DNA from: Bacteroidaceae bacterium
Lineage (GTDB): Bacteria > Bacteroidota > Bacteroidia > Bacteroidales > Bacteroidaceae
DNA: 55,227 nucleotides
Direction of reading: 5' to 3'
Assembly: GCA_017617335.1 (NCBI GenBank)
Contig: JAFZWK010000030.1
Coordinates: forward strand, 1-55,227
A program made the position numbers and the translations under genes. The notes below the pieces were generated by a model. The model was not told where the DNA came from. It saw nothing but the letters and a program-made list of their open reading frames with translations, and ran no database searches. Numbering within the stretch: the stretch's first letter is position 1; every line of letters begins with the position of its first letter. This document shows, in pieces, positions 6,148 through 43,253 of this stretch.

Positions 6148-6265
6148 TAAACCCAATTCCAGATTTAATGTTTTTTTACTTTCGTGCATCGATGACTTCT
6201 CTGCAAATCCCTACCGCCCAACCAAGTCATCCCACCAAAGTCCTTTGTTTTTGCCCTGAAAAAGA

Positions 6266-6341
6266 CAACACGTTGAAAAAGGAAAGACAACACGTTGAAA
6301 CCGCAGACTCAACACGTTGTCTTTTGCATCACGACACGTTG
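6266..6341. repeat. Phased array 1: four CAACACGTTG dyads, 22-bp period
   Basis: CAACACGTTG begins at 6266, 6288 and 6310, and CGACACGTTG at 6332: exactly 22 bp start to start, two helical turns. The first two copies are preceded by AAAGA and the last two followed by TCTTTT, so the array is also an imperfect inverted repeat: AAAGACAAC can pair with GTTGTCTTT. It begins 9 bp after the stop codon of the DUF5715 gene, so on the minus strand it could also act as a terminator. The remainder of 6064-6349 shows only the leader of the Spy-like gene. Confidence 0.85.
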
Positions 6342-6349
6342 TCTTTTGG

Positions 6350-16917: not shown

Positions 16918-17162
16918 ATTAGCCTACATGCCTACATAAAAGTGGGTTAAAGCATAGATTCACAATTAGATAGCCACTATACATACCTACATAAAGCCTA
17001 CATGGAGCCTACATACTTTTGACTTGTTTTAAGAAGTTTCAGCACCCTTTATGAATGTAGGCATCGTGTAGGCTTTATGTAGGCTTTGTGTAGGCTCGAG
17101 GATATGATAAAATATTGATAACAAATGCTTTAACCCACTTTTATGTAGGCATGTAGGCTGAT
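16918..17162. repeat. Nested large inverted repeat built of GCCTACAT units
   Basis: The outer arms 16918-16955 and 17125-17162 are inverted copies of 38 bp differing at one position. Inside them, 16986-17014 and 17055-17083 form a second inverted pair of 29 bp with four mismatches. The arms contain repeated CCTACAT/ATGTAGG words, at least ten in all. The sequence could fold into one long stepped hairpin or cruciform. It has no open frame and stands between queE and array 2. It is like a MITE or a replication/recombination site in form; I do not recognise the family. Confidence 0.85.
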
Positions 17163-17190
17163 ACTTAAATTTGGAATAAAAAATTAGCCG

Positions 17191-17266
17191 CTACACGACG
17201 ACTTTGCCATCACAACACGTTAACTTTCCAATCTCAACGTGTTGAGTCTAAGGAATCAACACGTTG
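17191..17266. repeat. Phased array 2: CAACACGTTG-type dyads, 22-bp period
   Basis: CAACACGTTA (17213), CAACGTGTTG (17235) and CAACACGTTG (17257) are exactly 22 bp apart, and a decayed fourth copy CTACACGACG (17191) keeps the phase. The spacer after the first copy (ACTTTGCCATCA) resembles one in array 1 (TCTTTTGCATCA), suggesting common ancestry. The array lies 28 bp from the large inverted repeat. The remainder of 17270-17560 holds only the short frame at 17268-17426. Confidence 0.8.
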
Positions 17267-17267
17267 A

Positions 17268-17426
17268 TTATTGGGTAAGATTTATGGAACATTCTGTACT
17301 TGTCTTATATTCAGAGACAATTTCTGCATACCCTGTAATAGTATCTAATTCTACAAGATATGTTCTTCCGTAGATGGTATCTACCACACATATTGAATTA
17401 TTTTGGTGCAAAGAGCAAAAAGAAAA
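17268..17426 (-). pseudogene. Short open frame, possible gene remnant
   Basis: On the minus strand a frame open for 52 codons ends with TAA at 17270-17268, one base from the last dyad of array 2. It has no ATG; TTG or GTG would be needed. The translation includes VVDTIYGRTYLVELDTITGY, which reads like a protein C-terminus rather than random sequence. It could be the remains of a gene lost when the neighbouring inverted-repeat element settled, or chance. Family not recognised. Confidence 0.25.
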
Positions 17427-42495: not shown

Positions 42496-42517
42496 GCCAA
42501 CTAATCCTGCTAGGTTT

Positions 42518-42561
42518 ACTAGTCATACTAGTTATACTAGTCCCTCCTAGGGGCTACTAGT
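42518..42561. repeat. ACTAGT palindrome cluster
   Basis: ACTAGT occurs at 42518, 42527 and 42536 (9-bp period) and again at 42556, with the related CCTAGG at 42546. These are short palindromes in even spacing inside a repeat-dense intergenic stretch. Confidence 0.65.
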
Positions 42562-42609
42562 CCCCATCCTCCTGTGCCTTTTGCTGTGTTTACATCCACC
42601 CCAAATAGT

Positions 42610-42654
42610 AAATGGTAGATGGTTAAATGGTAGATGGTTAAATGGTAGATGACT
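42610..42654. repeat. 15-bp tandem repeat
   Basis: The unit AAATGGTAGATGGTT is present twice (42610-42624, 42625-42639), with a third copy (42640-42654) that diverges at its end. It finishes exactly where phased array 3 begins. Confidence 0.85.
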
Positions 42655-42708
42655 CAACGTGTTGACTCCGGACTTTCAACGTGTTGTCTTCCCCTTCTTA
42701 ACACGATG
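42655..42708. repeat. Phased array 3: CAACGTGTTG dyads, 22-bp period
   Basis: CAACGTGTTG begins at 42655 and 42677, and a diverged copy TAACACGATG at 42699: exactly 22 bp apart. The last copy contains the ATG of the DUF4248-type gene (42706), so a protein bound there would meet the start of that gene. Same dyad and same phase as arrays 1 and 2. Confidence 0.8.
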
Positions 42709-42894
42709 AAAAGCTATTTCAAATACGAGTTGGCACGTGCTGCAGGAGTCAGCATGCGCACCTTCAGCCGCTGGCTGAGTCAGAACACCCTTCTCCTGGC
42801 AGAACTGGGAGTGATGCCCACCACGAAACTCATCCCTGCCAGAGCTGCCCATTGGATATGTGGGCAATACGGAATAGACGAGGGGGAGCTGTGA
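42706..42894 (+). CDS. DUF4248-like small protein
   Basis: 62 residues from ATG 42706. A longer frame from 42649 runs through the repeats and is rejected. The protein begins MKSYFKYELARAAGVSMRTF and continues with RWLSQN, then a basic and hydrophobic end, WICGQYGI. This is the pattern of the DUF4248 family of Bacteroidetes, which looks like a compact helix-turn-helix. Such genes often accompany DUF3987/VirE primase-like genes, HU-like genes and amidase genes; none of these is here. A phased array precedes it and a large inverted repeat follows. It may be the only gene of a small mobile or regulatory unit. Confidence 0.65.
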   Translation: MKSYFKYELARAAGVSMRTFSRWLSQNTLLLAELGVMPTTKLIPARAAHWICGQYGIDEGEL

Positions 42895-42924: not shown

Positions 42925-43070
42925 GTTGCAAAGTTGCAAGTTGCATTTCCGTTTTTCAATTTCCGCTCCAAAATAGTGGCATTAAATTTTTATATATATA
43001 AAGGTATTTTCTAGTTTTTTGCTTCTCTTTTCATTTTCAAAAATGCAAATGCAACTTGCAACTTTGCAAC
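42925..43070. repeat. Large inverted repeat with GTTGCA sub-repeats
   Basis: The arms 42925-42948 and 43047-43070 are perfect inverted copies of 24 bp made of repeated GTTGCA words. They enclose 98 bp of very AT-rich DNA including a TATATATATA run. A smaller near-palindrome, TGCGTTTTAAACGCA (42905-42919), sits just after the DUF4248 stop. The design (arms of short direct repeats around an AT-rich core) parallels the repeat at 16918-17162. Confidence 0.85.
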
Positions 43071-43160
43071 AGAAAAGAGTTGTACTTCCATAGAGAAGTT
43101 GAATGATTACATTGGACCATATTCTCGTTGAACTTCTTGATGTGTTGAAGGTTGTTCAAA

Positions 43161-43253
43161 TTAGTGGAAGGCGTGCTGACAGCCATGAGTAACTTTGACT
43201 TCATTGAAGTTCTTGCGCTCCTTTGTACACAGGCGAGCAAATTCGGAATCCAT
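43161..43253 (-). pseudogene. Short open frame, possible gene remnant
   Basis: A 30-codon frame on the minus strand begins MDSEFARLCTKERKNFNEVK and ends HAFH; after the stop the same frame continues with a plausible sequence (EQPSTHQEVQREYGPM). It could be the decayed end of a gene between the inverted repeat and the nucleotidase gene. Family not recognised; chance is possible. The rest of 42895-43265 holds only the inverted repeat. Confidence 0.2.

Follow-up and report, generated by a model that had tools for sequence, protein, structure and literature searches.

Phage P4 carries iterons of the GAACA type. In the archaeal plasmid pRN1 a stem-loop of about 100 nt is required for replication, its structure being conserved and its sequence not; it adjoins a repressor gene and a replication gene, and the replication product is described as having primase activity (PMC4234260). 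A lone DUF4248 gene of P. gingivalis is described as transcribed and as giving a deletion phenotype (PMC6231650), and DUF3987 as a predicted helicase of mobile elements (PMC5862659). Two kinds of dispersed repeat are likewise on record: BrickBuilt, a MITE of P. gingivalis made of intergenic tandem repeats (23-nt unit, 19 copies) with leader and tail (PMC4596501), and the REP elements, which go with RAYT transposases and are small palindromes lying outside genes in many copies (PMC3733652).

The window considered here is the whole stretch of 55,227 nucleotides that was analysed, contig C73 of a Bacteroidaceae genome (73 contigs, 2.37 Mb, 62% complete; genome label G000). The initial annotation had described two of its loci as sharing one plan, a 22-bp palindrome array with a large inverted repeat (IR), and had proposed a family of small elements with a variable recognition word.

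Layout of the two loci

Recomputation found both loci laid out at their coordinates as claimed; array 1 is listed for comparison:
6261..6347, no strand assigned: array 1, stand-alone; flanks AAAAAGAC..GTCTTTT.
16918..17162, no strand assigned: CCTACAT stem-loop of locus 2; outer arms with two words, inner arms with three, the words facing the centre.
16986-17014 / 17055-17083, no strand assigned: inner arms of locus 2; 90% identity, words 11 bp apart, 40-bp centre.
17191..17266, minus strand: 22-bp palindrome array of locus 2; three units and a degenerate fourth.
42654..42710, plus strand: 22-bp palindrome array of locus 3; its third unit overlaps the start codon of the ORF.
42706..42894, plus strand: 62-aa helix-turn-helix (HTH) gene, DUF4248-like, with weak HTH profile matches.
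42925..43070, no strand assigned: GTTGCA stem-loop of locus 3; three iterons per 35-nt arm, arms 91% identical, 76-nt loop.
43082..43167, plus strand: probable element tail; GTACTTCC..AGTTGAATGATT is common to the copies on C29 and in G052, GTTCAAATTAGTGG to that on C54.

Read on its own strand, each locus is a 22-bp array followed by the large IR; locus 3 alone has the 62-aa ORF between them (start codon ATG 42706, inside the third array unit), and in locus 2 array and IR are separated by a 28-bp gap. On the minus strand the locus 2 units read TCAACGTGTTGA.. / TCAACACGTTGA.. / TTAACGTGTTGT.., and the degenerate fourth follows. The IR arms are made up of the direct repeats CCTACAT (locus 2) and GTTGCA (locus 3), as had been noted; the finer remarks on the arrays, namely the third copies starting TAAC and the matching orientation of the asymmetric centre in copy 1, were also right. 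The outer arms of locus 2 agree at 97% over 38 nt and, when extended, at 84-79% over 62-73 nt. Five IR pairs of at least 25 nt were listed for the window, all at locus 2, at locus 3 or within array 1; Rfam at gathering threshold gave zero matches in the window.

The HTH gene and its stem-loop

HTH protein: The gene of locus 3 had been called DUF4248-type. The 62-aa product is a small HTH-like protein of Bacteroidales, as DUF4248 proteins are; the window protein itself had no Pfam match to DUF4248 (PF14053) at E ≤0.1 or at E ≤1, and the PF14053 profile gave 0 matches at E ≤0.001 in the source genome. The designation fits its relatives better, 21 of 30 matching PF14053 weakly (E ≤1; best 1.2e-4). 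Relatives occur in 37 of the 139 genus genomes and can be multi-copy (E ≤0.001: 14 matches in G052, 11 in G116, 7 in the source genome; some are fragments or have stops). At least 57 loci were named; the locus counts are non-independent, since 17 of the listed 57 come from two genomes, RUG12460 and RGIG2783. Among the matches listed, 55/57 named loci carry the label Bacteroidia or a subgroup of it, and the named genomes are, judged by title, mostly ruminant-gut Bacteroidales MAGs. No relatives were found in plasmid or phage collections, nor, with one peptide pattern, in IMG/VR.

Stem-loop behind the gene: Among the matches listed, 21 of the 52 loci that could be tested (taken from the at least 57 named) have an IR within 330 bp past the stop codon of the HTH gene, against 6/287 other gene ends; two of the 21, L230 and L256, appear unrelated. 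Ten of the misses were inspected by eye: a structure was visible in seven (L214, L222, L231, L232, L234, L240, L246) and none in L223, L237 and L248. Distant relatives (Paludibacteraceae, Prevotella, others) are mostly without IR. These comparisons support the HTH gene with its stem-loop as a recurrent unit in related species; this much of the proposed family of small elements stands, its stem-loops using many words, and the obligatory array does not. Partial copies of the GTTGCA stem-loop stand at the contig ends of C52, C23 and C36, and in several copies a contig starts or stops within the stem-loop or close to it, a break to be expected from repeated hairpins. No usable empty site was found for either locus: for locus 3, the G009 contig stops at an array beside the orthologous gene and the neighbour in G052 differs; for locus 2, a scan with the neighbouring gene returned nothing. 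The tail after the stem-loop holds spaced GTTGAAT-like motifs in three copies (window 43082-43167, L032:140-320, L150:6620-6800); a similar hairpin was seen by eye beside the L083 stem-loop.

The stem-loop of locus 3 begins 30 bp past the HTH gene, and in 16 of the 19 copies having an IR its start lies -5 to +40 bp from the stop codon. Such a position would suit a site of regulation rather than of replication: the iterons would be bound by the HTH protein or by some other factor, the hairpin would end or attenuate the HTH transcript, the arrays would be terminators or insulators, and the unit would be a self-regulating selfish gene. That the P. gingivalis DUF4248 gene is described as transcribed and as having a deletion phenotype (PMC6231650) agrees with this. 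A terminator, however, requires neither a word repeated three times per arm nor a recurring AT core of about 100 bp, and several words accompany one HTH helix; with the array data given below, we regard the regulatory explanation as unlikely.

Iteron words: A word of the form NNN[A/G]CA was present in 22 of 23 scored stem-loops, in 4-10 copies facing the centre (one mismatch allowed); 14 distinct words were counted, and 0.4% of shuffles attain four copies. To arrive at the 23, L219, L230, L233 and L256 were left out, and the two window loci and four stacked copies were included. The pattern was set down once the stem-loops had been seen, and so describes them rather than testing a prediction. 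The words of L214, L219 and L236 are not of this form, and those of L083 face outward. The recognition word is thus variable, as had been suggested, among the HTH cassettes; the part of that suggestion that made CCTACAT one of the exchanged words found no support, this word apparently belonging to a separate family (see below). Reading of the iteron word by the HTH recognition helix was considered and is unsupported: the helix NYRTFQRWL occurs with several words.

Cores: Thirteen stem-loops could be aligned as a first core class (e.g. TATATATCAATAATTACATA..ATTAATATAATAATATATAG); their loops are 66-75% AT. One iteron keeps ACA without exception and the next almost without exception, the preceding bases varying. 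A second core, around TCTATTATTAT..ATAATAATAGA, is found in L216, L220, L222, L236, L239, L214 and L231. An AT-rich centre thus recurs in at least two core classes; the window loop is assigned to neither. Pairs among the 13 agree on average at 65% over the core and at 59% over the arms, the arms including the constant ACA.

It is conceivable, and in our estimate quite unlikely, that the cassette is a minimal selfish replicator with the iteron word as its identity tag, the HTH protein reading only the constant ACA. If this were true, the core would be kept while about six words switch together, so that copies in the same cell avoid competing for one initiator, and stacks of the L228 type with different words would be successive arrivals.

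Stacks: Two or three stem-loops with differing words are stacked behind one gene at L228:190-830 (words CGAACA, GTAACA, ATCACA), L263:96-500 and L246:6171-6570; a common linker, CCTATCTGCC..TTAGGCAGAATGGA, connects the stacked stem-loops and occurs in two genomes. A shuffle test gave no support to these linkers being remnants of the HTH gene.

Companion genes (tblastn, within 6 kb of the HTH gene, among the matches listed): At least one of four companions was present at 14/57 loci; HU-HIG-like protein 13/57, DUF3987 6/57, a 93-aa protein 6/57, and a fourth protein without Pfam match, which we take to be an amidase, 5/57. The Pfam check covered two DUF3987 proteins and one HU-HIG protein. L216 (G114) has the full set of four, each upstream of the HTH gene; at L220 and L222 HU-HIG is upstream and DUF3987 downstream. 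DUF3987 gave no match in the source genome (62% complete assembly), and the four neighbouring genes scanned at the window copy belong to families other than HU-HIG and DUF3987. The idea that such loci are residues of primase/DUF4248 units fits locus 3, because its relatives sit near DUF3987 and HU-HIG genes.

Palindrome arrays and CCTACAT stem-loops

Arrays: Exact unit pairs (AACRYGTT twice, 13-15 bp between) number 210 in the 2.37-Mb genome, against 0 for the reversed pattern; in the window, cores with at most one mismatch number 21, against 6.1 (sd 2.8, largest 16) in 100 shuffles. Thirty arrays of 2-7 units were collected in 438 kb (18% of the genome), a sample consisting of the window and 20 stretches chosen for arrays, stem-loops or HTH genes, and therefore non-random and IR-enriched. 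Twenty-two of the 30 lie outside ORFs (crude ORF calling). Two, or three counting one inside an ORF, lie in gaps between divergent genes, which make up 30 of 142 background gaps. The array word AACRYGTT was found in 6 of 24 other genus members and in 0 of 16 genomes from other families. When 17 species samples of 10-67 kb were scanned without a preset word, G052 and G009 showed this same word, whereas the period-22 arrays of G024, G012, G116, G081 and, with less clarity, G140 were built on others; several samples yielded no period-22 arrays at the chosen threshold. The G008 units are mostly TAACACGTTA. Arrays with other words (GGTTAACC, TTCACACGTGAA, others) were noted at L161:14358-14472, L177:18198-18289, L167:11475-11559, L153:285-404 and L157:6303-6369.

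No separate long IR lies within 500 bp of 25 of the 30 sampled arrays of the source genome, in a sample that includes the stem-loop loci, nor of 27 of the 28 in G008. Most arrays thus have no IR nearby, the array does not define the element, and the array half of the common plan proposed for the two loci fails by the very criterion that the initial annotation had set. As period-22 arrays with different words occur across species of the genus, the 22-bp arrays form a palindrome repeat in their own right, spread through the intergenic space of the whole genome. This repeat has become linked to the elements and sometimes lies within the duplicated unit: the array stretch of locus 3 is common to the HTH copies on C32 and C68.

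A link by chance alone would be favoured by the same counts, as well as by the share of intergenic gaps of at least 100 bp that bear arrays (20/100 in the G000 sample, 23/69 in G008): both arrays and stem-loops would favour intergenic space, and the five CCTACAT loci of the source genome would be one copied composite. The CCTACAT elements of G057 and G097, which have no 22-bp array in their fetched flanks, and that of G067, whose only one is 578 bp away, agree with this. Against chance stand the HTH genes, where a 22-bp period within 400 bp upstream was found at 15 of 48 relatives versus 2/248 controls among the matches listed, in several species and with differing array words (L261, counted among the 15, is an ordinary tandem repeat), and the CCTACAT fragments of G053, G008, G079, G081 and G085, which lie 20-227 bp from 22-bp arrays. 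Adjacency by chance is, on balance, somewhat doubtful.

Other repeats were observed upstream of the HTH gene. A 20-bp period is also raised (11/48 named loci among the matches listed); in L041 it stems from TGGCGTGATT-like repeats of 10 bp that separate the array from the HTH gene (L041:1300-1470). In the window a 15-bp repeat, TAAATGGTAGATGGT (2.9 copies, 100% match), occupies 42609-42651 immediately ahead of the array, and repeats of the TACTAGTCATACTAG type are found at 42501-42543 as well as at L043:1700-1751, the two proteins being only 55% alike.

As to function, six array stretches fold as RNA to -17 to -49 kcal/mol (raw energies without shuffle control). In the source genome A/T tracts of terminator polarity flank the arrays (A4 left 9/30, T4 right 9/30; further out 9/90 and 6/90; wrong polarity 1/30 and 2/30); both observations speak for the regulatory explanation. 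The tract signal is missing in G008 (4/28 and 1/28 versus 15/84 and 11/84 further out), which speaks against it, and arrays as bidirectional terminators, supported by the tracts of one genome and not of the other, were not retained. A REP/RAYT origin of the arrays was set aside because no Y1 transposase (PF01797) match was found in the source genome; the same search gave no match in G008, G009, G052, G116, G005, G024, G012 and G081, and two matches in G140.

CCTACAT stem-loops: The source genome has five such loci, locus 2, which is without gene, and four relatives; array units stand at the same end in all five (on C37 one exact and one degenerate). Complete elements have the outer pair and at least three inner words per side. 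Pattern matches were found in 55 of 139 genus genomes, single matches being at control level; at least five matches are present in 20 of the 139 (own genome included; maximum 152, in G097), and the control never exceeded four. The survey sought this word alone, copies with other words being invisible to it. Twenty loci were fetched, several of them single matches at chance level; their flanks, covered to at most 1.5 kb, held no HTH or module genes. In other species, elements of four or more words showed no 22-bp array in the 300 bp to either side, the words themselves excluded; in that scan one match at each of nine periods was evidently due to a run of N. An AT-rich core was not seen in CCTACAT elements, and their centre differs from that of the HTH stem-loops. 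In G057 and G067 (L275, L279, ~1500-1950) a centre of about 230 bp holds two palindromes around ATTCTCTAGAGAAT; a locus of G064 (L278, left half) has the left arms and such a ATTCTCTAGAGAAT-type centre only.

As CCTACAT recurs unchanged across many species, there appear to be two IR families of like design and not one with a swapped word. The best reading of these sequence data is that locus 2 is a member of its own family of stem-loops, one without genes, and that its iteron design is similar to that of locus 3.

The dispersal of the CCTACAT copies, at five loci of the source genome and in the 20 genus genomes counted above (source genome included), is also what would be seen if the IRs were MITE-like remains of transposons moved in trans by a putative transposase, the words having no role; BrickBuilt offers a tandem-repeat precedent (PMC4596501). 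Three points tell against it: in the HTH cassette the IR is internal to the unit and not at both ends; the words point toward the centre; and Y1 transposase, the one family searched, was unmatched in the source genome and in eight of nine other genomes. We consider the MITE-like explanation improbable.

Origin-like reading and comparison with known systems

Both loci resemble degraded pieces of mobile DNA from a family that has received little study. The reading tentatively preferred, to which we give a little less than an even chance, is that the stem-loop of locus 3 is an origin-like recognition site of helicase-bearing mobile modules, present in the window as a cut-down copy, and that locus 2 belongs to the separate family described above. 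Both IRs are iteron stem-loops, in which converging NNN[A/G]CA words flank a centre. Locus 3 is a small cassette of an HTH (DUF4248-like) gene and its own stem-loop; in relatives, such cassettes also occur beside genes for HU-HIG, a DNA-binding protein, and for DUF3987, a putative helicase. The stem-loop may serve as recognition and melting site for the replication machinery of the module: a protein, possibly DUF3987, would load on the iterons, the AT-rich core would then open, and the HTH protein may regulate or aid assembly at the stem-loop. Copies lacking the helicase, as that of the window seems to, would be maintained or moved in trans, or would be decaying. The sequences show the anatomy and its recurrence, the variation of the words, the recurring cores and the linkage to the companion genes; origin function, mobility and the role of the HTH protein are what we infer from them.

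The HTH stem-loops, like iteron origins, have repeated words beside an AT-rich region, and the anatomy points to an iteron origin because the words around the AT core adjoin a small DNA-binding protein and sometimes a putative helicase; pRN1 is the closest worked example. Several observations are against the origin reading. DUF3987 lies within 6 kb of only 6/57 HTH loci among the matches listed and is unmatched in the source genome (62% complete), and the plasmid and phage collections gave no relative of the HTH protein. The core identity (65%) is little above that of the arms (59%), the core classes number two or more, two of the 21 IRs appear unrelated, three stem-loops have words of another form, and those of L083 face outward. 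One HTH helix accompanies several words, and the CCTACAT elements have a different centre and no gene in the flanks covered.

That a centre should recur while the words around it are exchanged together is uncommon in evolution, and the cassettes offer a natural test set for the rewriting of origin or operator specificity; they would also point to a DNA partner of the DUF4248-like proteins, whose domain is one of unknown function. The arrays pose a second puzzle, since the word of this 22-bp palindrome changes among species of one genus. Among the papers listed, mostly outside subscription journals, no title or abstract opening described the gene-stem-loop pair or such 22-bp arrays.

Compared with the described systems, the window arrays resemble REP elements as multi-copy extragenic palindromes, and differ in that their units form 22-bp tandem arrays (REP data: PMC3733652, as excerpted). 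With BrickBuilt, as far as the excerpted account goes (PMC4596501), they share intergenic tandem repeats of nearly equal unit length; unlike BrickBuilt, they consist of palindromic 22-bp units, with 30 arrays in the chosen 18% of the genome, and the stand-alone arrays share only short A/T caps in place of leader and tail (flanks compared by eye). DUF4248 is approached in protein length and in the weak profile matches of the relatives; the window protein itself is unmatched, and the text of PMC6231650 contains no mention of "palindrom-" or "inverted repeat". The HU-HIG/DUF3987 modules have their genes near HTH relatives, whereas none was seen at the window copy. pRN1 differs in being a crenarchaeal plasmid whose stem-loop follows the replication gene, whereas here it follows the small HTH gene, and iteron words are not mentioned in the excerpted account (PMC4234260). 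Like the HTH modules, pRN1 combines a small repressor, a replication protein and a stem-loop of unconserved sequence.
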